Source: Neelides folsomi
Lineage: Eukaryota; Arthropoda; Collembola; Neelipleona; Neelidae
Direction of reading: 5' to 3'
NCBI GenBank assembly: GCA_034687125.1
Contig: JAQGBZ010000062.1
Span: 124,001 to 188,000, forward strand
DNA: 64,000 bases
Shown: one piece after another, positions 3,001 through 46,749 of the stretch
How positions within the stretch are numbered: the first letter of the stretch is position 1
Layout of the letters: each line of letters opens with the position of its first letter
Program-made: the position numbers and the translations under genes
The notes under the pieces: model-generated
Seen by the model: only the letters and a program-made list of their open reading frames with translations
What the model was told of the DNA's origin: nothing
Database searches by the model: none

Positions 3001-6000
3001 ACTTAACTTTCTGTCGGTTGGGCCGCGTAAACTTGTTGGAAGTTGGAAGACAACTTAACTAACCATGATATTCTCCTTTGCTACTTACTTTCCCCGAACC
3101 CTTTCTATTGGAGAACATTAGCCCATGCACCCATCTCCAAGATATCTCATCAAGATTCTACAAATTTACTCACACACGGACTCTAAGAATGTGAAACGAG
3201 GAGATTTACATATTCTAACTTAAACATTAAACTCAGCTCTTCGTCTCACTCCAACCCATCTTTTCATTTTCATAACTGTTTCTCTTCTCAAAATCTTTTC
3301 CTAGGAAATGAGTATGCAAATTTCTTTTAATTCAACTCGACGGAAAGAGGGCATAAATGGGGGAGAGTTGATATCCAAATTCCTCCAAGACGTCCATTTA
3401 ATATTTATTAAATACAAAAATCTGAAATTTTCTCCACTCATCTCAGAGTCATTAACATTCTAAAGCACTTTCAATGATGGCTAATTTATTCTAAATTTTA
3501 TTTCTTATTTATTGTAGGTAAAATCCGGGGATTTGAGCTGAGCTGCATCGTCCTTCAAGAGCCCAGAGAGATAGAGCAGAGAGAAGTTGAGATAAAAGAG
3601 CAAAGACGGGTTTTAATGGGAAATGAGTCAAATTTGTCTTGGAAGTTGAGGATGAATGGACCAAGTGTGCTTTGTGAGATGAGGGATGTAGGAAGGAGAG
3701 GGCCATTGTAATTTAAATAGGTTCCGTCTCTCCTCAATTTTTCTGGAGAAGAAACATGTGGTTTTATAGATGTAATAATTGTTTTGGCTCATAAAGAGTA
3801 AAGTTGGGGCCATTCCGCGAGATTTATACAGGATATTAAATGAATGTGGAAAACAAAAGAGAGTCTCTTAAATACGTTCTTTGGATTTTGGAGGACCGGT
3901 TAGGCGGACAAAGGGAAAGTCTTGGTTCAATTTAGTGAAGGGCCCATGGCTGGGAGCCAATTCATAAAGTGGGCTCCACAAAGGGACCCAAACTTTCTTC
4001 TCCTTTTGTGTAAAGAAGGGAGGATCCCGATTTCTTTTAATACCTCCCGAACCCTTCCTAAAAATTTACATAATGGGTCCCGTTGACTTTCATTGAATAT
4101 CCGAATATTGGATCCGAATGGGGGAAGAACATAAAAAAATGAGTTGCATTCTCATCTCCAGAGACCCATTGTTTACTCTCTTGCACAATGTTTCCTTTCC
4201 TCTCAATGTAAATTGTTGGAGTTCTTTGTCTTCCTAAGCCCATTTCCCTCCATTCGATCCGCTGTGAATATTTCTTAATAAATTAGGAGGAGAGATGAAA
4301 GGTCGCGAACGGAGGCGGATGTTGACTCTGAATCAACATAAGGGCAAATGGAGGAGAGATAAAGGATGTTTTAGTCAGAGTCCAATATGAGGAGTTCTCA
4401 GGCTTCTCGATTTCCTCGATTAATTGAAATCAGTTTAAAGGCGAGGGGAGGGCTTCTGCTCGGATTTACCACCACGTGTGTAATGGGCCATTCCGGCTCC
4501 AGAGTCAATATTTCATCATTCCCTCGGCTCCCTTTATTTACATCCAGACTATTGCAAGGATTACGGAAGAGTTTATCCTGCGTAAACTCGGTTTTTCCAT
4601 ACACTGCCTTCTTTACATGCGAGAAAGCAATCTAGGGCTATATCAGGCCAGCCAATTAAGAGGATTTAAAGATACTTTTTACTTGTCAAGTGAAGTTACG
4701 GAATTTTATCATTCCCTCCCCTCTTTTCAATAATAAAAGTTTTAAATGGCGATTAGCAAAGGACTGAATAGATTCTTTACACTTTCCAACCTTAGCTCTT
4801 GCATTTATAATGGCAACATGGCGAGAAACGTGGTGTTGGGAGGAAATTTATTTCAGTTTCTCCCTCGTCGCATTCTTCCCTATTGTTTATCTAATTTTTA
4901 ATATTGATTCCCCCTTGCCCCCGTCGATTTGAAGAAAAGGAATTCGGGAGATAAAAGAAGTCATTCCACGTTGTAGGGGAGAGATGGTAAAGGGTGGATG
5001 ATGAAAACTTTACGAGAGATTTTGATTCCTGGAAGGTTCGCGTGGAAAGGGAACATTTGAGGATACCTGGGAGCCTTTAATAGATTTGAAAAATCCATTG
5101 GAATAATGAGAGAAAGAGGCGGAGATAGGGATAATGACACCGTTGACGAACTTCGACTCCTAAATATTTGCACGGAAGACCTCCATGTGTAGAGTCAATT
5201 TGAGTCTCGAGGCGATGAGTCCCATCGGACAAGGGAACATTACTTAACGGGAAAAGGGGAAACCAATTCACCTGAGTACTTTCACCTGTGAGTAAGACTA
5301 ACAAGGAGCTCTAATTGAATCCATTATAATTTCCATTGCCTTACTTTTCCGTTTCCCCAACTAGGGGGAGGTTCAACTCCGAACTCGACAGTTTTTGTCT
5401 CATTAGCGACCCAGCCTCCTTCCCAAGGACTCTTGAATAATGGAGGGAGTAATAAAAGAGAGGAGATGTGAGGATTGTCACATTTAAACACAATTCCAGT
5501 TAGGAATTAATAAAAGAGAGTAAGGACCCAAGAGATAACTTCTCTGAGTGAGGAGGAAATGAATTTTTAAGGGAACGTAAAAGAGGAAATATTTCATGAT
5601 GAAGCGGGGAAGAGGGAACTTGAAGGGTAAGGTGGAAAACAACGCTGGGTATTCCGACTTGACATGGCTCTGTCACTTTACAAGCCCGTAAAAACGAAGA
5701 ATCAATTTCAGTCCCGAGAAACAACTTGTGCCTTGTTAAACAAGGATTTCTCCTTAAACCGGATTTATGACCCAGCTACCCTTCACCTTCCCCTAACAAA
5801 GGGAAGGTTCCAAAATAAATAATCAATGGAGATTCAAATTCTGCTCCCTTAAAATCCATATTCATTTTTCATGTTGATCTTTCAAACTCAAATATTTGAA
5901 GAGAGACGCTGAGATATTACAGAACAAAGGCTCGTGTCCCTCCAAGAACACAAACATATTGACATTCACCCATTCAACTCGTCAATCGACCATTGAGACA

Positions 6001-8121
6001 CGGCGTGGTGCACTATAAAAACCCATATAGATTTTTTTGTTTTTGACCTTTGGCAAGGAATTTGATACCTATTCGTTATTATTATTCCCAATTATAGTAA
6101 AGTTCCCCTATACAAATTCCCAACGTAAGACTAATGGGGTTTTTGCGTGATGCGTGAGCCGATGGGCCGTCTCACTATGTAATTTAATCAATTTTCTTAT
6201 TGCATTAATTAATTGTAGCCATGTAGGGGGACATGGGAGGGCAGGGATTCATTGGCACAATTAAAATAATTGCTGTTTTTTATAGATCTCATACAAAGAT
6301 TCCTCATTACGTTACCGGGAGATGAGAGGGCAAGCGGAGGGAGGAATTAAGTTGGTCATGTCGACAAAAAGTCATATTTCATCTATTTGTTTTTATTCAT
6401 GGAGGATGAAGGGGACAACCCTCGTAGGGTCGTAATTACAAATGACGGAATGAAAGACGGAAAACTCGTCTCCGTGTTTATCTTTGACAAGGCTAAATAG
6501 GATTACTCATGTAATCAGGGTGAAAAATGTCGGAGTTGATCTCTATCTTGTTATCTGACTTTTCCTATATCACTACCATACAAATACTTAAGCACATATT
6601 ACATATATGATGGGGAGAGTAGGATGGAGCATTGTTCGATTTTGCGTATTTTTCCCTCTTTATAAGTACAAGTATTGAAAAATCAAATGAGTTTAAATCC
6701 TCAGTTAAGATCCTATCTCCATTTCACTTACCGCCCCATAGCTTGGGGATGTAAATGTAATCCGATGGGAGTGTAAGGTGAAGAGGAGACTTTATGGACC
6801 ATTGTGTGTGTCGTGGAAAGAAGTGTAAAGCGAGACTCGGGGGAGATCCCAAGGAGTGGAACTTGAGACAGAGGAGTCCATTTGTTTATAAGGAAGACAT
6901 CCTGTGGCTTTGAGAGACAAGGGTGTGAGAGCTGAGGGGCTCAACACATTTCCCACGGCAGCTTATCCTCTCCGAAGGTGAGGGAAATAAGGAAGAAGAA
7001 TGGGGAAGTTCTCAGGCCGCTCTTTTCTCCTTTTATCTCTTCTGCCGTTCCGGGTAAGGAGAAAGAACTTTCGCCTTCTTGGCAAGGAAAAGACTTACGA
7101 TTTTGGCTCAAGAAGGAGAGGAGATCGTGATTCGAAATTCCGATCCCTCTCTTACTATACCTTCCTCGGCCCAAGTTCTTTCTCCAGATGGATTTCCTCG
7201 GCCCTACGATTAAGAATAAGTAAAGAGAGTTTTGGAGAACTCGAACGCCGCGACGAGCGACTTCGTGAGGAATGAGAACTATTGATCTTTGTGTCTTCAA
7301 TAGAGTCGTCCAAACTCGATTGTTTGTCATCCTCGAGAGTATATGAAATAAGAGCCGGAGGAGGTGAATTAGCCCTTTCCCCCAATTTCACTCCACTTGA
7401 CAGGAGGGTTGGACAAACGCGAGCGTTTCGAGTTTTTGTATTCACAACTTTTACCATCTAGATCTCTTTGTCGTTTAATTTAGAGAGGCAGAGAAACCAA
7501 TTTTTTACTTTTGATACATTTATACACTTTATGTTTGAGAAGATGGATTTTTGTCAAAGCTCCCTGACGAACTCTGGCCGAGTTGTAAAGATGATTTGGA
7601 AAGAAATTGGAACTTTCTATTTTATTTTCTCTTCCTGTTTTCCTCCTCGATCTCTTCCTTTAACTCGACGTGATGAGATGAAAGTATATATGGCGGAGAG
7701 CTTTGGGGAAAATAAAAATATAGGTAAAGAAAAGTAAAATAAAAAAACGCCGCAAGACACTCGAATTTCCATCAGAATCGGACCAAATGGAAAAGGAAAA
7801 GGTTTACGTCTTTCTCTGCCCCTTGACTCTTTGTGAGAGAGATGAAAAACATTGGAATCCATGTTTTAGATCCAATCATCCAGTTTCCCATCCTGATCCT
7901 TCTTTCCTCATTTTTGGTCAATTTTAGATCTTTGTTATGTGAAAAACGGATTTTAAAGCTAAAAATGTCTCTTTCATCTGCTCATTCTTTAGATCTATTT
8001 TTTACTTTTGACCCAATCGATAAATGTTTATATTTAATGGAATATGTATCTGCAATTTTGCATCATTATTTCAAGCATAAATATTTGTTGTTTTGTTTAG
8101 TTTTGGTTAGGGAGTTACAAA
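1..8121. other. Non-coding region with no supported gene
   Basis: I read both strands and found only short open frames without recognisable domains, conserved motifs or coherent splice structure. The base composition is visibly richer in GGAGG/CCTCC-type tracts than the right half of the window. It could be intergenic DNA or part of a long 5' intron of the klingon-like gene, whose first exon was not located. One ATG at 7000 opens a short hydrophobic peptide followed by a strong donor-like GTAAGG, discussed under rejected items. Confidence 0.5.
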
Positions 8122-8322
8122 TATAATTGTTAATTAAGCGAGACTTACCTGTAAGTGGAAGCTTGATTGAGATTATATGAAGCGTATGAAGTTCCAGAAC
8201 GACAGGAATTGAACACATATGTAGAACATAGTTATACTGACTGAATAAACCCATAACTTTAAAGAAAAAACAATGCACTAGTATCGCAATCCAGCGTCGC
8301 ATTTTCCCCAATAACCTCAGAA
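8122..8322 (+). repeat. Left inverted terminal repeat of DIRS-like element
   Basis: Positions 8182-8322 match the reverse complement of 13575-13717 over about 140 bases with scattered mismatches and one small indel. The outer part 8122-8181 is absent from the other terminus but is complementary to the internal complementary region at 8369-8452. In coding orientation this is the 3' end of the element. Confidence 0.85.
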
Positions 8323-8368
8323 TTTAAAGCCAAATTTTTGATAAATAAAAAACTGGAGGGAGGGTAGG

Positions 8369-8493
8369 AATTCCTGTCGTTCTGGAACTTCATACGCTTT
8401 ATATAATCTCAATCAAGTTTCAACTTACAGGTCTCACTTAATTAACAATTATAATTTAGCGTATTCCGTTCCATTCCGACAGGAATTAAACAC
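8369..8493. repeat. Internal complementary region (ICR) of DIRS-like element
   Basis: The first part (8369-8452) is the reverse complement of the left terminus 8122-8210. The second part (8447-8493) is the reverse complement of the right terminus 13684-13730. The two parts overlap in an AATTATAATT core, as if copied across a head-to-tail junction. The complementarity resumes for a few bases between and after the two nested insertions (8737-8738 and 10310-10311), so the original region was slightly longer. ICRs are established features of DIRS elements and are thought to template end joining. Confidence 0.85.
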
Positions 8494-8494
8494 G

Positions 8495-8736
8495 TACTCC
8501 CAAGTTCCAGTTTGAGATAAAGTTCGTTAGTTTAGCGTCGAGTAAAAAATGATATTCTCACTTTGCCCTTTCGCAATAAACTTTTGTTATTTTTTGGTGG
8601 GGAATGTTAATTTCGAAATTTTAACTTTAATTAAACTGACTTAGACGTTTTTAAAAGCTTTATGGGCACTATGAGAATTTCGTTTTTACTTGACGCTGAA
8701 CTAACGAACTTTATCTCAAACTGGAACTGGGGAGTA
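8495..8736. mobile_element. Small TA-flanked MITE inserted in the DIRS ICR
   Basis: A 242-bp segment including both TA copies has terminal inverted repeats of roughly 65 bases, beginning TACTCCC and ending GGGAGTA, with only a few mismatches between arms. Flanking TA dinucleotides fit a Tc1/mariner-type target duplication. It has no coding capacity, so it must have been moved by a transposase supplied elsewhere. It was inserted into the DIRS element, hence is younger than it. Confidence 0.8.
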
Positions 8737-8862
8737 TGTACAGGGTGAGCCTTAAGTTTCACGGTATTTTCAATTAATCAGCAATCTTTAATATTCAACT
8801 TATTTTATATAAAGTAATTAGGAAGTATGTCTGTAATACATCATAGAATAAGTAAAGAAACT

Positions 8863-10066
8863 TTATTTTTTCACTTGAGCACCATTGACTTCGATGCACC
8901 TCTGCAACCTACCCTCGACTGCTTCGCAAGCTTTTTTGCAAAGATGAACAGGGATTTCTTGAAAAACTCTAACAATGGTAGCTTTCAATTCTCCAATTGT
9001 TGAAGGAGTTTGGGCGTAGACTTTGTCTTTAACATAACCCCACAAGAAGAAATCCAAAGGGGTCAAATCTGGAGAACGAGGAGGCCATATGAAGAGCCCG
9101 TTCCGTCCAATCCAACGATTTCCGAATTTCTGATCCAGGTACCTCCTTACTCTTGCATCAAAATGGGCTGGGGCTCCATCCAATTGAATTCAAGATCTGA
9201 TTCGGAATCTAGCGTTGGTGATGGCGGGCATAACCACCTCCTCCATCATCTTCAGAAACGAATTTCCATTAACGTTTCCGTCGAAAAAGAAAGGTCCGAT
9301 GACTCCACGAGTGGAGATAAGTGCCAACACGCACAATGAAGTCGATCTCATTTTCTTCTCTTTCAGGACATGAGGATTTATCAGTCTCCAAAATATCTGA
9401 AAATTGCATGCAATGAAGCGGAGGATGAAGAGGATGTGGGTGGCGGGAGGGGAGTAGGGTGGCGGGAAGGGGGGGCAGGTGAAAGGGATGGAGGAAGGAA
9501 AGCTGGACAGGAGTAGCATAAGCCAATTAAAGAAAGCGTATTGCTAAATATCTCGTTATGCCGATTTATTGTCCCGTTTAGGCAAAATGAGGCTTCGTCG
9601 CACCAAATGATGAGGTCGATGAATGTAGGATCTTCATCAACGATTGTCAAAAATCGCGTTGCGAATGCAAGTCTTCCTGCCAAATCGCTCTTTTAATTCT
9701 TGCATATAGGATGCGTGAAATGGCTTGAGTGTTAAGTCATTTAACATACGTCTTAAGGTCGTTTGTTTAAAATTAAGTTTCAACGAGAGTTTTCTGGTTG
9801 AGGTTGGTTCGATCGGGCGTTCTTCAATTCGGCGGCTCAGAACTTGAAGATTCTCTTCCGTCCTAATGCTTCTTGGCCTTCCTTGGCGCTTCTTATCCAA
9901 AACACTCCGTCTCAAATTTAACCACCAATTTCCTAACTGTGTCTGGGTTTGGAGGTATTGTTTTAAATGGCCAACGTCGAATAACCTCTAATGCGTTTTT
10001 GACTTCGCAAAATTTTTCAATTACAAAGATTCTCTCCTCTTTATTTAAAATTCGGCGATTTACCAT
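8863..10066 (-). pseudogene. DD41D transposase remnant
   Basis: Reading on the minus strand, the N-terminus starts at the ATG at 10066 (MVNRRILNKEERIF), then shifts frame into a helix-turn-helix region with GRPRS. A second shift leads to the first catalytic motif WCDEASFCLNG. The second and third motifs, MDGAPAH and WPPRSPDLTPLD, lie in the last frame, which ends at 8863. At least two frameshifts and a 155-bp insertion (9399-9553) separate the pieces, so no functional transposase is predicted. The helix-turn-helix and catalytic pieces together cover the length expected for the family. Confidence 0.82.
9399..9553. repeat. CT-rich insertion with 8-bp direct repeat inside the transposase
   Basis: On the minus strand the transposase frame is interrupted after NRHNEIF by a pyrimidine-rich segment. 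The direct repeat AAATATCT (plus strand) occurs at 9391-9398 and again at 9546-9553. Removing one repeat copy plus the intervening 147 bases restores an in-frame reading through NEIFWRLINPHV. The insert has no obvious terminal inverted repeats. The type of insertion is unknown; an 8-bp duplication would suit a hAT-type event. Confidence 0.6.
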
Positions 10067-10398
10067 AATAAATATGAAAAATAACTTTGAGAGAGAGAAA
10101 AGAAAAGCTTATACTCAGAAAGTGAAAATTCGGCTTTCTCAAAGAAAAGTGGCTATTTTTTTTGTGGATTGACCGAAACATCTAATAGTTTGATACATAC
10201 TAGACTATCATATTGCCCATTAATTCACCTTAATTAAAGATATCTAACTTTAAGCATATTAAAAAGATGATCCATTGAAAATGCCGTGAAACTTAAGGCT
10301 CACCCTGTAGATATTTAAAGATGGCAAAAATTCAATAATTAATAAGAATTGTATTATTAACCAAATTAAAATATAAAACAATAAATCACATTACAAAT

Positions 10399-11131
10399 TC
10401 ACTTATTCAAGACCACAAGACTAAATTTCTCAACAAGATCAATTTTACACTTATAGAAATTCAAAAATGTTCTTGATTTAAAAGTCCAACCTGCACATGA
10501 TAAAATTGAATTAATATCAACATCTTTCTGAGAAGCCTTTGAAATTTAGGCATGACGAAAACTGTGACCTTTAATAAAACAATTTGAAAAATTGAAAAAC
10601 GACTGAGATTGGGTAATAAAAAGCATGAAATAATCTCAACAAATTATTATTTAATTGCCGAGGTAAATTTAAAGTACATCTTCAGAGTCTCAACACAAAG
10701 CTTAGGTTCAACCTTATAACTATTTAGTACAATTGATGTACCTAAACCATTAGGTTTAAAAGTTTTTAAAACACGTTTAATAGGAATAACAATCATATCA
10801 CTAATAACAATATCTGACAAATTAATAGCCTGAATTGTTTGACTTTAATGACCAGTCACAAGGGCAATCAAACCAATTTAAAACTTAATTGCTTAATATT
10901 CAAATCAGCGTTATTAGGCCAATTTTGAAACAATCTCAATACAATATCTGGGTCCCATATATTAGAATAGCTTGGTCTTAAATGACCAATTGCTCTCACA
11001 AAACGAGATATTAAACGATGAAATTCAATTGGTACACCTTGAATAAAATCAACAATTAAAGATAAAGATGATCGTGCTGTGTTAACACTATTATAACCCG
11101 ATCCGGATTTATAAATAGTAAGGAATTCCAA
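10399..11131 (-). pseudogene. Tyrosine recombinase (YR) remnant of DIRS-like element
   Basis: The N-terminal part (minus strand from 11131) contains SGYNSVNTARSSLSLI and ISRFVRAIGHLRPSYS, typical of the core-binding domain of DIRS recombinases. A catalytic-domain stretch follows, with AINLSDIVISDMIVIPI. The C-terminal part carries FRHA, an in-frame stop, then SILSCAGWTFKSRTF and a tyrosine codon at 10453-10455 in the position of the nucleophile. The reading ends at the stop at 10399-10401. Stops and frame changes make it inactive. Confidence 0.8.
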
Positions 11132-11200
11132 AACATTTTAATACTAGAAGTAAACATTTTAATTATTTAAAATACAAAATAGCATTTGTATTATCAACTC

Positions 11201-12290
11201 TTAGTAAAATATTTTTCCCATTAAATAATTCTCATTGCTTTTAAGAGATCTTTCAATCGCCATAAGCTCAAGACAATTAATATGCGATATCTTATCTTTA
11301 TTAGACCAATTTCCATGGTATTTAATATCATTAAATGTACAACCCCAACCAGTCAAAGAGGCATTTCTAAAAATCGCAACGTTAAAATCACTATTTGACA
11401 AGGATCGCCCATTCTCTAATACCTTTTGCTTCCACCAGTTTATATCGGCTTTAATACTATCACTAATGATCAAAAAGTGGTTGAAACTGCTATTAGATTT
11501 GATGAGATTAATAGTTTTCTCATGTTCAATTCGTCTAACCTAACCTAACAAACCATAATACACAATGGGAAGACAAGAAACTAGAGTTTCAATCAATCTT
11601 GCTACATCTCTAATCACCATTACATCTTTACTTAAATTATCGCAGAGACACTGTTTTAATTACTTTATATTGAGGTAAAGAAATAAACATTGAAATTGAA
11701 TCGAACACAAAGCCAAGATATTCAATATTATTAACAGGAGGACATTGCACAACTAACTTTTTACTTTGAAATTGTTACTTTGAAAATAAGATATCTAATC
11801 GTTGCACCAATTATGAAAAGTAAAAAGTGGCGTTTGCAAAGTAAAAAGTACAAAGTAAAAGTAGCTAAGTGAACGATTTACATTTTGCAATGTAAAAAGT
11901 ATAACTTGTACAATGGGACCCAGGTTTTAATAGTGATTTTTAGAAATTAATAAAGAAACCTAATTTTAGCAATAAGCATTTACACTATCAATACAAAATT
12001 TTTTCGAATTTTTTCTGTTTTTCCCATTATTAAAAAATCATCAAGGTAAATTACAATCAAATGACTATTTGATTTTAATAAGTAACAACCAGTTTCATTA
12101 ATTTAGTAAATACTCTAGGAGCACAACTTAAGCCAAAACATAAAGAACTGAGTTCATAAAGTTGATTATTCCATCTAAATTTTAAAAACTTGCGGAAATC
12201 TTTGTGGATATTTACAGAATGATAAGCGTTTTCTAATTCAATCTTTGCTAAAAATATATTCTTTTCAATTAATTGAACAACGGTTGTTCG
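11201..12290 (-). pseudogene. Reverse transcriptase / RNase H remnant of DIRS-like element
   Basis: On the minus strand the RT finger/palm region reads KIELENAYHSVNIHKDFRKF and LSSLCFGLSCAPRVFTKLMK, followed by the catalytic box VIYLDDFLIMGKTE (YLDD at 12037-12048). A conserved downstream block, PPVNNIEYLGFVFDSISMF, lies near 11.70-11.75 kb. The RNase H-like segment has INWWKQ, NASLTGWGCTF and HINCLELMAIE (11201-11473). These blocks match the DIRS-type polyprotein. Stops, frameshifts and a probable insertion between the RT blocks (about 11757-11935) disrupt it. Confidence 0.85.
11757..11935. repeat. Probable small insertion with inverted TTTTTACTTT motifs
   Basis: The segment separates two RT blocks that are normally close together. 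Its left part has ACTTTTTACTTTG and TTACTTTG. Its right part has several copies of the complement, AAAGTAAAAAGT, AAAGTAAAAGT and TGTAAAAAGT. The arrangement suggests a short foldback element, but the exact ends and a target duplication could not be fixed. Confidence 0.4.
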
Positions 12291-12381
12291 TGAAGCGAAA
12301 CCCGCTTTTCCTTCCTTGGTTCATTGGTAGCTTGAAGTTTAAACGACTTCTAATGATCCCCTTTGATTGTTGGGATAAGGT

Positions 12382-12606
12382 TTATAACGAGCAGTTTAAT
12401 TGTGCTGGTGGAAACGGCCGATCTTTAAAGATCCCCTTCATGTCATCGTCTAATTTTTCCCCAAAAAGTAATTCACACGCTTGATCCTTCCTCAATGTAT
12501 AAATGCCTGAAATGTCAGCATTAAGACATAGCTTGACCAATGCCCTCCTGTTCGAGGAAATTTCTTTCATTGCTGCTCCAAGGAAAGCAGCGGTATCCAT
12601 GGTCAA
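12382..12606 (-). pseudogene. Gag-like fragment of DIRS-like element
   Basis: The minus-strand open frame has DTAAFLGAAMKEISSNRRAL and LLFGEKLDDDMKGIF, which resemble the helical gag-like region upstream of the RT in DIRS and related elements. It lies directly upstream (in coding sense) of the RT remnant, in the right order. The rest of the gag region up to about 13.56 kb is too decayed for me to translate with confidence. The assignment rests on pattern and position, not on a catalytic motif. Confidence 0.5.
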
Positions 12607-13574
12607 AACTCTTCAACGATCTCTCTTGGGAACCCTTTGGATCTTTTCAGCAGAGTTTCTGATGTCTTAGCTTGAGCAACTAGAAATCGAGAAATATGTT
12701 GCTATAGAAGTTTCAAATGAGCATCATTTGATTTGGTAGAAACTGACAAAACTTGCCAAATCTCAGTTTTAACTCTGAGAGAATACAAATTCTTACAACT
12801 TTCAGGAACTTTGTACGTTTCTCGAATCATCTATCCCTCTTCCTTGCTCAATGACTGCAATGGAATAACTTGGAAAAAAGATGAAACTTCTTGCTTCAGA
12901 GAATTGTATCTGAATTATTTTGATTTTAAATTGCCAAGAGGCTTTCGTCTGTCAACTTATATGTAGTTGGGTCATTATCCATTGTGGAATCAAATAGTTC
13001 AGCAGATTGAGCTTTGTATCCTGAGGCCCATCAAACTGCTCCCAATCTATTTCCTCGTCGATGATTTCATCATCACATTGAGACATAGATTGCAATAGAG
13101 TTCTTTTGAAATTTAATTGCTTCAAGAAGTAATGCCAATTTTGTTAATGTCGAACCTGCATAATGTTACACATTATATTTATTAATAAATAAATCATCTC
13201 TTACTATGTTCTGAGACTTTTGCTGTCAATCCCTTTAATTGCTCAATTAGCATGTCGGTCCAAATCCATGTCGGTTCTTTGAGGGACAGATGAGGACTCT
13301 ACGAGTGATTCGCCGCTTTCGTCTTGACCAGGAATGACTACGTCAAACTTAAGACTGCATATTTTAAAGGCATGGTACATTTGTTTTACTTTAAAAGGAC
13401 TATTTTACTAATTGGAATCGGCTTAAGTTCAAAAAAGTTAACTTACGTTCTCTTTTGTCTCATCCTTTTCGGTGGCATGACTAATATTACGTCCAAAATT
13501 TAACTATAACTGATAATTAAGATGAAAATGAGGAGGTGAAAAAGATACGTCGACTCAAATCAGCATAAAAAAAG

Positions 13575-13730
13575 TTCCGAGGTTATTGGGGGAAATGCGA
13601 CGCTGGATGGCGATACTAGTGCATTGTTTTTTCTTCTTTAAAGTTATGGGTTTACTCAATCAGTATAGCTAGGCTCTACATATGTGTTCAATTCCTGTCG
13701 GAATGGAACGGAATACGCTGAATTATAATT
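13575..13730 (-). repeat. Right inverted terminal repeat of DIRS-like element
   Basis: The reverse complement of 13575-13717 matches 8182-8322 with scattered differences. The outer end 13684-13730 is complementary to the second half of the internal complementary region (8447-8493). In coding orientation this is the 5' end of the element. Confidence 0.85.
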
Positions 13731-16700
13731 ATACGTATGGTATACAAATACTAATGCCAACATGCAGGCAATTTGTTTTGCATTTATTTTGAGTTTACAT
13801 TGAAAAATAAACTTTCACCAATCAAGTTTATCTATGAGGATTGATGTTTCAATATTGAAGCTGTATTTTAATGAAAAAACCTTTTTGAAAAAGGAATAAA
13901 TAATAAAAGGATAAAAAGTTAGGTTTTGTGCGATTCGACGGCCCCGGTTCTCATTCAGATTTGAGTGAAGAATTTATTTGGATTTTTGATGTTTGATGCA
14001 TTTCCTCTTCCTGGGCAAGCATAAAGGGGAGTTGGGCGCAATATATCATTTCTTTGGTTCGGTGATCTTTTCTCCTCTCGCGGTAGTTACGGTGAGAGTC
14101 GGGCGAAGTGGTTGAGGAAACAAGTTTTGGGATTGAGACTCCTCAAGAGGACAAGGAATGATGGGGATGATGGCAAGCGGAGCAGACATCACTTGAAATT
14201 CTTTTTATACCCATTGCGATAAATTTCTTCAATGATGGTCCGATTCGTGACATCTTGGCTCTGAACGTAGGCCTGAGCCATTTCTCCTCCCGGGTTTCTT
14301 CAGCCTAAAGGAGGAACCGAGCCTGAATAAAAAATTAGTATTGATATTACATTGCCTTCCATTACCTCTCGTCTCTTTCCCATTCAATGACATTCCATTC
14401 GGAGGAGCCATCCGACTAATGAAACTATCTTCCTGACCTCCATACCCAACCACCGCATTTTCCCAAAAAACCCCAAACCGCCATTCACATGTCACGAATT
14501 TACTCGCGAATCATATCCCATTAAACCACCTTTGACCTCCAGGAAATTAAACCTGTCCCGGCGCTCGGCCCAAAAAGTAATTAAAGTAGAGCTTGGAGGA
14601 GAAAGGAAATTTTAAAATGAAATCTTTCTCCCCAAGGTGAAAGGGGGTTTATCCCCGGAGCAGCGGGCGGGTGAGAGGTGATATGAAGAACTTGTGAAGG
14701 CCAATATTGCGAGATAAAAGGATTAGCATATCTTAATTATTATAGGGGAGCCATTTGTTTTATTAGAGGGTGGAGCTTTCTCAAGAAGGCACGTCTTTCG
14801 TTTAGAGAGAAAAAAGGCTTTATGACAAATCAAATATTTGAGTCATGGGGCAATCGTAATAGATATTTATTTTCGGGTCCTCTTCCTCGAAATGGCATCT
14901 TCGTGGGTAAATTGCCAACTGTCGTTGGTCCTCTTGAGCCAGAGAGCCTCGTGACAAATATTGACCATCTCCTCATCACTCAGAAACGTAACGAGGGTTC
15001 TCCGACGCTCCCTCCGATTTTTTTCCGAACCTCTCATCTCCCCGACTTCCCAATCTCACTCGGAGAAGAGTCAGCGTTCTCTCTTTCCTTTCTGAAGGAC
15101 CCATTTCTCACTTCCGTGTCGCCCAACGACGTCCTCACAACACCAAGAGGGAAATTTGGAAATTTGAGAAGGCAAATTATTTATGCACTCTACATTTTGA
15201 GAATGGAAAGTTTTGCTGAATTAGCTGTAAGTGGGGAAGAGATTCCATAAATTGTGAGTTTAGATCAGCTCCTGCTGCCTCGCCTGGGCACCCGCGAGGG
15301 AATCCGGCCCGAAAGTGAAAGGTAGGGAAATTCTGAGGAATGGCGGAGGGCATAATAAGTTAGCTGGAGGTGCCGTGGCCCATAAATTAGAACGGAGGAA
15401 GAGGAAATTACCTCTGCATAAGTCAGGGTAGCCTGATAAAGGCCCATTAATTTATATGGACAACTCCGGAGATTAATTGGCCCTGCTCGCCCACAACTCT
15501 CCCTGTTGAGATCCTTGGAGGAGAGATTGGACAAATAGGACAAAACAAGTGTCTAGGCGGCTGTATTGACTCACACCCGCCCAGAGAGCGGCGTTAATTT
15601 AATGCCTATAGATATAACCAGGTGACAAATTCCGAGGCAAATGTCGAGAAGTGAGAATGATGAGAGTTTCCCCACCCTCGCAAAACCCCATGGAGTCGCA
15701 TGTGGAAAAATGGAGTTGGGCTATGGGCATAAATACACCTTTAACTTAAATCACGTCAAATTAATGTTCCGTTATTGCCTCCCCGAACTGCACGACACAT
15801 GTGGCCACACAAGAACGAAAAACTAGTGGCATTTTCACAACTTTCTACCAAACCCCCTCTTTAAACAATAAAACATTTTAAAGGGGAAAATGGCGAATAT
15901 CTTAAAATAAACCAGAGCAGAGAAGTAATGGTTATAAATCAGATCGTCGGAGTTGATAGGTCTATAATTATTTCTCACTATTACTCTTCAGCTTATAATT
16001 ACTCTTACATCCGTCTTTTTTGAATTTAAAATATTTTACTGTCATCTCAGTGGTGCACGCATTTCCATTCCCGCGAGTTTTCCGCCTTCCTTTTGGTGAA
16101 AATAAAATTTTTTACTTTCCGCTAGTTTGTCCGTGTGTATTTATAAAGCCTTCATATTATTTTCAACTTGGGCCCATTTCTTGTCTAAAATGTAAATGAG
16201 TGTTGTGAGGAGGAAAGTGAACCCTTTTCTTTCCCTCCTGCCCTACTTCTTTCTCTTCTGTGAGGAATGAGGAGTGAAAAGTGGATTTAAAATTTTAAGA
16301 ACCGAGTTTCCCCCGAGCTACCTCGGGTAATTTGGCGTTCGAGGTAATTTGAGATAGCGTGATGTGATGGAAGAGATCTCATAATATTATATTGTGTACA
16401 ATGTTTACAATATATGGTACTAATATTAGCAGCTATACATAGCATTTGCTTAATACTGAATATTCCTAGGAATATCAGTAAATGTATATTTACATTTTTT
16501 CTACATCCCACGTATATTTCTCTGCGACAGTCATGTAATAAATAGTATCAAAAAGTTATCCACGTTATATTTCACAACCAATGCATTTTGAATGAGGGTC
16601 AAATGAAATTGAAAATTTGAGATAATTTCCAATTTCACGGTAAATACATATTTCTGTAGGAGAGAGAGCGTGTTTTCAATTTGCATCACCCAATATACAC

Positions 16701-40252: not shown

Positions 40253-41848
40253 CTCTCCGTTCCGAAAAACAATTTACATTTGGTTTTTATAAGATAATGT
40301 CGAAAATTCAATTTATTATTCAAAATCATTTTAAATATAATTACTTGACATATATGAGTAACAACCAAGTTAGTTTTAATATTCAATTGTATTTAAGTAA
40401 TTAATGTTAGTTAATAAAACATCCTTTGTCAGCCGTTTCATAAAACGTTTTACGTTTGAATAAAGTTGATTAAAAGGTAATTGTAATTAAATAATTTTGA
40501 GTAACTTTATTTTAATAGTTTGTGTGACTTCCACGGACTTCGCGTAATTGACCAACGCGATTTGCCATCGAGTCATTGAGGGTCTGAAGACGTTTCAAGG
40601 GAATATTTTCTCATTCCCGGATAATGGCCTCTTTAAGGTTTTCAATGGACCAATACTGTTGACCTTGGCCATAAACAGCTTGGGAAAGTTGGACTCAAAG
40701 ATTCACCATTGGGTTCATGTCGGGGGAATACGCTGACCAGCGTAAAAGACGCTCCCCGACAATTCCTCATCATGCCTAACCATGCTCTTGTTGGCGCTGA
40801 GGTGTGGATTTTAGCGTTATTCTGCGCCAAAATCCATTCTTCGTGTGCGATTTCATCAGCACAATTGAACATATAAAGTTCCAGGACTTGCTGGTATTCC
40901 TCAAAGTTCATCCTCGAAGAAACGAATGCGAGATCAGACTTCCCACCTTACCCGAATCCTGCAAACACCATGACAGATCCTCCTCCAAATGCCGTTTTTG
41001 TAAAACTCCTTTTTTCTTTTCGTGTCATGCCAGTAGCCTTTGTACCCGTCTGGGCCATCCAAATTAAACTTTTCTCGTCGACGAAGATGATTCTTCTCCA
41101 GTGTTGGCCCATTGCTGTCATGTCACGAGCCCATCCAAGCCTTTCCATTTTATGGCGTTCAAGTAAGGGTGGTTTCTTGGTAATTTTTCTTCTGAAAATG
41201 TTAGGCGAGCTGGGTATCACTTTGTGGATTGTCGTTTTACTTTGTGGGAGATTGAGAGAAGCTTTAATCCGGCTTAACGAGAGCGTAGAGTTACTTGCCA
41301 CTCGAAGAATTCTTCTTTTATCCGGAACAGAGACAGTTGATGGCCTCCCTGTAGGCTTGTTAGTCCCATAATTTTCACCCAAACGCAAAAATTTGTTCAA
41401 CGTGGGTCTCGAAATTCGAAGTATTCTGCAGATTTCATATTTCTTTACTTTGCGGGCCAATAATCGGGCACCTCTTTCTTCAACAGTCAATGTTTTCCCC
41501 TTGCCATTTTAGCTTAGCCTTTAATTTTAACAAAAGATGCCCATTTACTCAATTGTAATTATTTGTAATTAATCTTAATAGCTTAATTATTCATATAAAC
41601 AGTTAAAACTTTAACAACTTATCTTGATTCGTTTCAAAACTTGATCCCAATTAAATCCGGTGCAGAATCGGTAAATTTAGTTAATGTAAAGAATTTATGG
41701 TTTAACTTTAAGATATTTCCCTGACATTTGGATATCATATACTCTTTATTATGAGGAATATTTACCGCCATTATAATAATTTCGTCATCGCGCACAACAA
41801 AAATTATCATTCTTAAACCCAACGTAAAACGTTTTTCGGAACGGAGAG
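40253..41848 (-). mobile_element. Tc1-like transposon, decayed
   Basis: It is flanked by TA (40251-40252 and 41849-41850). The terminal repeats start CTCTCCGTTCCGAAAAAC on both ends, are identical for the first 18 bases and stay recognisable for about 55. A further copy of the inner motif AAAACGTTTTACGTTTG near 40440 recalls the IR/DR layout of some Tc1 elements. The element carries a broken minus-strand transposase and lies between the klingon-like gene and MCM7. Confidence 0.82.
40512..41507 (-). pseudogene. Tc1-like transposase remnant
   Basis: The likely start is the ATG at 41507, with an early frameshift into LTVEERGARLLARKVKK. A helix-turn-helix with ISRPTLNKFLRLG and GRPSTVS follows. 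The first catalytic motif reads FVDEKSLIWMAQTGTKATG, then FGGGSVMVFAGFG ends at an in-frame stop. The frame resumes as RMNFEEYQQVLELYMF and ILAQNNAKIHTS, where the usual catalytic QDN has become QNN. After another shift, WSAYSPDMNPM continues to a terminal stop at 40512-40514. At least two frameshifts, stops and a lost catalytic Asp make it dead. Confidence 0.82.
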
Positions 41849-45300: not shown

Positions 45301-46749
45301 GTATCCACTGTCCTCTGGTCTGTAAATAATTAAAAGTTTTAATATTCAATATACTTTAATATTCAATTTAATTAATTAATAAATTTATTTAAAATGTGAC
45401 TTACTTTTGTCATGCCAAGTTGATCATGAAGGATCCTAAGTGCGCTTGATTTTGACACATCAAATGTCAACGCAATTTGCCTAATACTTTTTCTCTTGTG
45501 TAAGGGCATGTAATCAGAAATGCTTCTAATGGTTTCTGGGACTATCATACTTGTAGGCCTACCTTCACGATGCTGGTCAATAATTGAAAGTGTCCCATTT
45601 CTAAATTTATGTGACCATCGCCGAACTGTAGAATATGTCAACGCGTTTTCGTTATAAACTCGTAGGAGACGAGCATGTATTGATACAGCTGCCGATCCCT
45701 CTAATGTTGGAAATTTTATAACGGCCCTTTGCTCAATTATATCGAAATTGTAATTGTCCATTATTATATGAAGGGAGGAAAAAGGTTGGAAACAAAGAAA
45801 CCAGGATATATACTTTAACATCTTAAAAGTGTATACACAATTTGAAAAAAGTGAGTGGTACTGATTAGAACTTTTGGTCCACCCTATTATTACATTTTAA
45901 TTTAATTTTTATAAACAATTACTTATTATTCATTTCCCAAATATAATTTATAGGCTCTTGATATGTCTCTGATGCGCCGATACATCGAAGCTGCCAGCAG
46001 AAAGAATCCAGCTGTACCTGCTGGACTTTCCGATCGACTTGTTGGAGCTTATGTTGAACTCCGTAAAGGTATGTTGGCTTATTTTATGAATCCTCATTAA
46101 TTGAATGAACGAATGTAATTTAATAAAATTTTGTCAATTAATTATTTATTTTAGAAGCGAGAAATTCTCTTGATACGACTTTTACGTCTCCCAGGACTCT
46201 TCTGGCTATTCTTCGCCTTTCAACTGCTTTGGCTCGCCTTCGTCTCGCTGATCAAGTTATAGATGACGATGTTAACGAGGCTATTCGATTGGTGGAAAGA
46301 TCTCGAGACTCTATTCGTTCACCAGCTTCAAAAACTATTAAACCAGCTTCTGCCATTCAGCAGGTTTGTGTTTTCTAGACTATTACTGGAGTGTAATGAA
46401 TAATGATACATGATGAAATTGTGATTCATTTCAATAGCATCAATACTTTTTTTTAATAAATTCATTTATTTAGATACATAAAATTATTCGCGACATGAAA
46501 GGAGATGCACTTGAGCTAAAAGTGAAAGGGGTTAAGGACAAATGCTTGAAAAACGGATTCACTTTGGATCAAATCGAGCACTGTCTCGACGAATATGAAA
46601 ACATGGTATGTAAAGAATTATTTAATAATAACAGAAATATGAATTTGCTTCCGAGAGTAGGTTTATATATATATATTGTAAAATATTATTGTTTATTATA
46701 GAACATATGGTCCATCAATACCAACCGAACGAAACTGACTTTCGTCTAA
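42314..46749 (+). CDS. MCM7: DNA replication licensing factor MCM7
   Basis: Twelve exons keep frame: 42314-42531, 42628-42941, 43025-43210, 43294-43460, 43542-43709, 43781-43907, 43971-44182, 44279-44521, 45954-46068, 46155-46363, 46474-46605 and 46702-46749. They give 712 residues, close to human MCM7 (719). The N-terminal domain has the zinc-binding cysteines (CDAC and CASAFC). The AAA+ core has Walker [10 protein letters not shown] near residue 374, Walker [10 protein letters not shown] near 434 and arginine-finger LLSRFDLLW. The protein is one subunit of the MCM2-7 helicase, loaded at origins in the nucleus and driving forks as part of CMG. The start codon opens with [10 protein letters not shown] and fits the family N-terminus. 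AATAAA at 46798-46803 gives a short 3' UTR. Intron 8 holds a mariner element. All key motifs are intact. Confidence 0.97.
44610..45761 (-). pseudogene. Mariner transposase remnant
   Basis: It starts at the ATG at 45761 ([17 protein letters not shown]) with helix-turn-helix segments [13 protein letters not shown] and GRPTS. Decayed middle blocks can be read in shifting frames ([14 protein letters not shown], then [18 protein letters not shown]). The second and third catalytic acids are in HDNTRPHKA and [12 protein letters not shown] count 34 residues between them. A 23-bp tandem duplication (44775-44820) follows FGPLKA and shifts the frame before the C-terminus, [16 protein letters not shown], ending at 44610. 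Stops and shifts make it inactive. Confidence 0.85.
44775..44820. repeat. 23-bp tandem duplication in mariner transposase
   Basis: Two exact copies of a 23-base unit (44775-44797 and 44798-44820) lie in the segment encoding YLFGPLKA on the minus strand. The length is not a multiple of three, so it shifts the frame. Confidence 0.9.

Follow-up and report, generated by a model that had tools for sequence, protein, structure and literature searches.

Anatomy of a probable DIRS1-like retrotransposon copy, dead and internally deleted, in the collembolan Neelides folsomi

According to PMC4157794, DIRS elements are defined by a methyltransferase domain and the Dirs1-like ones by inverted repeats, and PMC9210276 reports that DIRS-like elements can carry such a domain, found in 38 of the families evaluated there. 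A common plan has been published for 28 elements, in which the inverted terminal repeats (ITRs) have a divergent and a conserved part and most elements have a right extension (PMC3266345). The same source describes an internal region of two parts that overlap on a 3-bp circular junction, ATT as the most frequent end, and a box, 10 nt or longer, that recurs in each ITR and in each half of the internal region. The DIRS replication model is presented in PMC5633606 as a proposal lacking full experimental proof. Here we describe an element at positions 8122-13730 of a 64,000-nt stretch of Neelides folsomi DNA (assembly GCA_034687125.1, contig JAQGBZ010000062.1, positions 124,001 to 188,000 of the forward strand), which is called the window below. 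Our data indicate, with a probability of about 0.93, that 8122-13730 is a DIRS1-like tyrosine-recombinase retrotransposon of low copy number, and that this copy is dead and has lost internal sequence.

The coding strand of the element is the minus strand, and the element runs from its left end at 13730 to its right end at 8122. Direct reading of the sequence and a repeat search gave the following ends, repeats and internal region:

8122-8180, minus strand: right extension, complementary to the internal region only, starting with the core TATAATT at 8122-8128
8181-8325, minus strand: right ITR, with a divergent outer part (8181-8200), the box GACAGGAATT (8201-8210) and a conserved part (8211-8325)
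8369-8453, minus strand: right half of the internal complementary region, complementary to 8122-8210
8447-8496, minus strand: left half of the internal complementary region, complementary to 13681-13730, with the core AATTATAATT at 8447-8456 common to the right half
13572-13719, minus strand: left ITR, from the repeat search
13720-13730, minus strand: left end, with the core TATAATT at 13724-13730

In the repeat search the ITRs pair over 93 nt at 86% complementarity (8181-8273 / 13627-13719) and over 64 nt at 94% (8262-8325 / 13572-13635), and no left-end partner was listed for the right extension. The internal region matches the right end over 64 nt at 95% (8369-8432 / 8147-8210) and over a second stretch of 26 nt at 92% (8431-8456 / 8119-8144), and the left end over 50 nt at 94% (8447-8496 / 13681-13730). 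The whole region covers 8369-8496, and its halves meet in the core, which is self-reverse-complementary. Exact matches of both ends to it overlap by 7 bp (TATAATT), and therefore the span 8122-13730 holds the core twice. Chance is excluded, because the right end matches the internal region of a relative on contig C94 with a BLAST E of 1.6e-33, and the block 8122-8493 matches C94 with an E of 8e-145.

This layout was found in four elements: the window copy, two further copies of its family (family 1) on contigs C94 and C91, and one element of a second family on contig C353. ITRs are present in 4/4, as is an internal region that reads, in reverse complement, as the right end joined to the left end, its core being deleted in C91. 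The right extension complementary only to the internal region is found in three of the four (window, C94 and C353). The ends of DIRS1-like elements share a short motif with the circular junction, of the form NTT/AAN and often ATT/AAT; here it is TATAATT in the window and TAATTA in C353, and is present in C94 only with mismatches. When the window right end was used as a query against the genome, at least nine matches were obtained, all in three elements (window, C94:84645-87027 and C91:16758-18936). The C353 recombinase open reading frame gave at least nine matches, in the four elements only, and hit recombinase fragments in all three family-1 copies (E 2.2e-17 to 1.4e-6), while the reverse transcriptase (RT) piece gave at least two, in C353 and the window; copy counts from these searches are lower bounds. 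The C94 and C91 elements, of about 2.4 and 2.2 kb, are internally deleted relative to the window copy and have kept the ITRs and the internal region. An earlier reading of the window from its sequence alone had staked the element boundaries on ends shared by other copies and on an internal region recurring in relatives. All three family copies and the second family indeed have the internal region; the left end agrees in 3/3 copies and the right end in two of the three.

The C353 element (locus L052, 3955-8714; internal region 4216-4347) follows the same plan. Its ITRs are 150 nt long and identical at 150/150 positions, and its junction core is AATTGTAATT, compared with AATTATAATT in family 1. 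It has an open recombinase frame of 328 amino acids (Phage_integrase, 2.6e-10), and its gag-like and RT frames are broken into pieces, two of which match RVT_1 above the Pfam cut-off (3.8e-07 and 2.1e-08). The two families are well separated: blastn finds three short stretches of 69-75% identity, and recombinase fragments are 37-57% identical. None of the pattern matches to the C353 recombinase in collections of viral contigs (4) and genome contigs (21) was a relative. Its two matches to PDB sequences (E 0.23 and 0.82) were both spike proteins and were discarded, and a structure predicted without an alignment (mean pLDDT, a per-residue confidence score, 36.7) was not used. An inverted-arm reading of the family-1 junction (GCTGAATTA ... 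TAATTAAGC), seen by eye, did not recur by eye in C353 and was likewise set aside.

Comparison with the C353 protein pieces located the coding remains of the window copy:

10450-11188, minus strand: tyrosine recombinase remnants with broken frames, falling within C353 recombinase residues 52-316 and interrupted by a gap at about 239-275
11172-11635, minus strand: RNase H region remnants, matching C353 pieces
11983-12284, minus strand: reverse transcriptase remnants, matching C353 pieces
12520-12899, minus strand: gag-like remnants, matching a C353 piece presumed to be gag from its position only

On the minus strand the order is gag-like region, RT, RNase H, recombinase, internal complementary region and right repeat. 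RT, RNase H and tyrosine recombinase lie in one orientation and in that order in C353 also. The RVT_1 match in the window, at 12075-12320 (9e-06, 26.0 bits), falls below the Pfam cut-off of 29.6. RNase H is also weak by Pfam (0.0062) and falls below its own cut-off. Beside the main coding blocks there are minor matches, an RT piece at 11726-11688 (E 0.012) and single chance ones (E 0.015-0.48). The RNase H match to C353 runs out near 11172, and recombinase similarity starts again near 11134-11188. Three C353 pieces between the two have no counterpart at the corresponding place in the window, their lone listed match being at 8784 (E 0.13), and the window copy therefore lacks about 0.7 kb, as estimated from C353 coordinates.

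Three pieces of DNA transposons also lie within the window copy:

8497-8734, no strand assigned: nested insert resembling a miniature inverted-repeat transposable element (MITE), with 57-nt inverted repeats (93%), flanked by TA on either side and not present in C94 or C91
8741-10307, minus strand: nested mariner/Tc1-like insert between TA dinucleotides, with 46-nt inverted repeats (91%), absent from C94 and C91
10573-10664, no strand assigned: lone terminal repeat of another inverted-repeat transposon, inside the recombinase region, with paired copies elsewhere, for example on C422

The first two adjoin the internal region on its inner side, where C94 and C91 are uninterrupted. The mariner/Tc1-like insert matches DDE_3 and HTH_32 weakly, with scores under the curated cut-offs. 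After insertion, the window copy decayed through point changes, the deletion of about 0.7 kb and the three DNA-transposon pieces. The sequence-only reading had called the element structurally complete, which is right for its termini and wrong for its coding part. Its other statements on the anatomy were borne out: a DIRS-like element is supported by the repeats, the RT and recombinase matches and the further copies; the proteins are broken; and the ends, the inverted repeats and an internal region resembling a copied circle junction can be read. The anatomy proves to be real and correctly placed, and it is ordinary among DIRS1-like elements, because the layout found is the textbook layout of a well-described, rare kind of retrotransposon.

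In the published model, a transcript without the outermost ends would be reverse transcribed. The internal region would then act both as a splint and as the template for rebuilding the missing ends and joining them into a circle, which the recombinase would insert through an exchange inside a short core that matches the target. No ordinary target duplication is expected in that model, because the exchange occurs within the core. In the window and in C353 the ends have only the core in common. The exact matches of the ends overlap on the internal region by 7 bp in the window and 6 bp in C353 (exact-match test, applied to the window, C353 and C94). Random targets give an overlap of at least 7 with P 0.0014 and of at least 6 with P 0.0039, and therefore the ends and the target share a real core in these two copies. 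By rough arithmetic, the overlap beyond the published 3 bp has a chance of about 0.05 and 0.13, respectively, and this excess is not clearly above chance.

The six ITRs of the three family-1 copies have 26 variable columns, of which 20 are singletons and 6 are informative; the latter represent five events, since a 2-bp indel was counted once. Four events group the left ITR with the right ITR of the same copy and one conflicts. Such grouping by copy has a probability of about 0.007 by our own arithmetic if pairs are random (3 of 15). Left and right conserved ITR parts differ at 9/115 positions in the window, 13/120 in C94, 11/120 in C91 and 0/123 in C353, the C94 and C91 stretches extending a few bases past the repeat. 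Private changes shared by both ITRs would fit a homogenisation of the two ITRs before insertion. The architecture as a whole fits the circle-junction model without proving it. The sequence-only reading had taken the layout as direct sequence evidence for replication by this route, which goes too far, as the sequence only displays what the model predicts and what PMC3266345 had already published for 28 elements.

Several observations weigh against our reading or against parts of it. No methyltransferase domain, which would be expected after RNase H, was detected by Pfam or NCBIfam in the C353 pieces, where pol is broken, and in the window copy the corresponding stretch is missing. By eye, a region with FPPF / VVVPSW was seen at the expected methyltransferase place in C353, and it may be a motif of that domain. 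In C94 the exact matches do not overlap, and a 7-bp core there needs one mismatch per side. In C91 the outermost right 25 nt or so do not align confidently, the internal region has lost its core, and the copy was unsuitable for the overlap test. Searches for an empty site of the window, C353 and C94 elements found none (0/3), the joined flanks matching only their own loci. The internal region is no closer to its own terminus within a copy than between copies on either side, and the pattern is star-like. On the right side, distances are 3/62, 2/60 and 5/62 within copies, compared with 3/58, 4/60 and 5/60 between termini and 4/60, 3/60 and 4/62 between internal regions of different copies. On the left side, they are 2/39, 2/37 and 2/37 within copies, compared with 1/37, 2/39 and 3/37 between termini and 3/37, 2/37 and 1/37 between internal regions. 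In C94, a terminus and its own internal region have a single right-side change in common, an A replacing G in the GACAGG box. Within-copy distances are like those between copies, and therefore copy-specific templating of the internal region is not distinguishable. Finally, the C353 right terminus is only 93% identical to its own internal region over 88 nt despite identical ITRs; at three sites it carries the left ITR version, and the internal region keeps another version. It follows that either the internal region was not the last template for that part of the end, or a later conversion took place there, or the internal region itself has changed. C353 thus speaks against the simplest form of the end-templating model.

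Among other explanations, an element of the Ngaro, PAT or VIPER type, that is, a tyrosine-recombinase retrotransposon with split direct repeats, is the one that survives best, and it is very unlikely. The absence of a methyltransferase match by Pfam would agree with it, as Ngaro and VIPER are described without one in PMC4157794 and PMC3266345. The long repeats here are inverted, however, both in the ITRs (93 + 64 nt) and in the internal region (64 + 50 nt), and split direct repeats (A1 ... B1 A2 B2) were looked for in all four elements and not found. Direct-repeat families in the window element are just 39, 30 and 21 nt long, the first two being by-products of the inverted plan, and the longest direct repeats in the other three elements are 43, 38 and 42 nt. 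A long terminal repeat retrotransposon (Ty3/Gypsy) was rejected, as there are no long direct terminal repeats and the longest direct repeat in the window element is the 39-nt one between right ITR and internal region. The long ITRs might also be explained by a DNA transposon or foldback element into which unrelated RT-like fragments had been captured, and mariner-like and MITE-like inserts with TA flanks are indeed present in the window copy. Yet RT, RNase H and recombinase keep one order and orientation across two diverged families, and we know of no DNA transposon with an internal region complementary to its joined ends, which makes this origin scarcely credible. Equally far-fetched is a post-insertion inverted duplication of the ends, for although inverted duplications in single elements can arise through fold-back repair, the internal region occupies one position in 3/3 copies as well as in a diverged family, and both the left and the right variants of the divergent ITR are preserved within it in the three family-1 copies.

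A further feature stands beside the internal region:

8355-8368, plus strand: G-rich tract GGAGGGAGGGTAGG, immediately adjoining the internal region at its outer (right-end) edge

In 4/4 elements of both families, a G-rich tract lies directly outside this edge on the same strand, as GGAGGGAGGGTAGG (decayed) in the window, GGGAGGGAGGGTAGGG in C94, GGGAGGGTGGGTAGGG in C91 (one change from C94) and GGGTAGGGAGGG in C353. This analysis was exploratory, and the pattern used, three GGG runs spaced 1-3 bases apart, was chosen after the tract had been seen. The tract is the sole occurrence of the pattern in each of the 10-kb loci L009, L010 and L052. The window tract fails the pattern, and the three matches in the window (6235, 9464 and 21008) lie elsewhere. 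In 65 other loci, which overlap each other and partly the elements, the pattern occurs at 29 places in 422,704 strand-bases. The chance of a single tract within 15 nt of the right place on the right strand in C353 is about 0.003. By G count in 16-nt windows, the tract ranks first at the C94 and C91 loci. It does so too in the window element once the two large inserts are excluded, with 8122-8490 and 10314-13730 counted, but the C353 tract does not rank first. No DNA hairpin is indicated at the tract (z -0.47). A literature search found no link between G-quadruplexes and DIRS tyrosine-recombinase retrotransposons, although one may still be in print.

It is doubtful that this tract is a working cis-signal of DIRS1-like elements, though a role can be sketched. 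The strand carrying it would be the first cDNA and the template strand, and a polymerase extending the cDNA 3' end over the internal region would reach the tract exactly when the copy is complete. A G-quadruplex there would halt synthesis where the new end needs ligation. Alternatively, the tract might act as a purine-tract primer site on antisense RNA. Should it recur in other DIRS families, it would offer a testable stop or primer signal for an incompletely proven replication model.

The inserts have relatives of their own. Near-identical copies of the MITE-like insert lie at C85:207978-208228 (95%) and C5:290478-290727 (94%). The mariner/Tc1-like insert has many genomic relatives at about 64-77% identity and contains a G-rich stretch near 9420-9490, and the C422 pair of the 10573-10664 type has starts about 640 bases apart. 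The C91 recombinase remnant contains an insert with perfect 28-nt inverted repeats (L010, 4228-4787). At 11756-11904 the window copy is AT-rich with AAAGTAAAAAGT-like repeats, partly common to C114, C120, C38 and C222. Elsewhere in the window, open frames at 40951-41508 and 45375-45896 encode Tc3-like and Mos1-like transposase helix-turn-helix domains, and the open reading frame at 14687-15247 had no PDB sequence match. A motif seen in the flanks of several copies was abandoned: TAYGTATGGTA, with at most one mismatch, occurs three times in the window where 1.64 are expected, and TAYGTATGGT was found in 19/69 loci, some of which belong to other transposons. Contigs C448, C829, C710 and C171 carry arrays of TTAGG (19 overlapping matches of six units), presumably the arthropod-type telomere repeat, which would point to an arthropod host.

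The closest described elements are DpuDIRS3, AcaDIRS1 and LgDIRS1, from Daphnia and molluscs. Unlike them, as far as PMC3266345 describes them, the window copy is deleted and interrupted and a methyltransferase was not detected, and its exact core overlap is 7 bp compared with the 3 bp reported there. The founding model, DIRS-1 of Dictyostelium discoideum, has ITRs, a right extension and an internal complementary region, as here (PMC5633606, PMC3266345). DIRS-1 also has a long overlap of pol and recombinase and prefers to enter its own copies, whereas the flanks of three copies here match only their own loci. In Table 3 of PMC3266345, the divergent and conserved ITR parts, the right extension and the internal region measure 24/170, 50 and 38-89 in DpuDIRS3, 36/32, 48 and 45-88 in AcaDIRS1, and 35/31, 48 and 39-86 in LgDIRS1. 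The corresponding sizes here are about 20-30/115, 59 and about 50-85, close to those of DpuDIRS3 and the mollusc elements, and we count this in favor of a DIRS1-like element. These three elements share with ours the ITRs, the right extension and the two-part internal region, together with ATT termini and an AAT circular junction, and a box of at least 10 nt, as in the elements of that table, is represented here by GACAGGAATT. Our study contributes two DIRS1-like families of low copy number from a compact genome of 75 Mb, and their four copies now allow the published circle-junction anatomy to be checked base by base.

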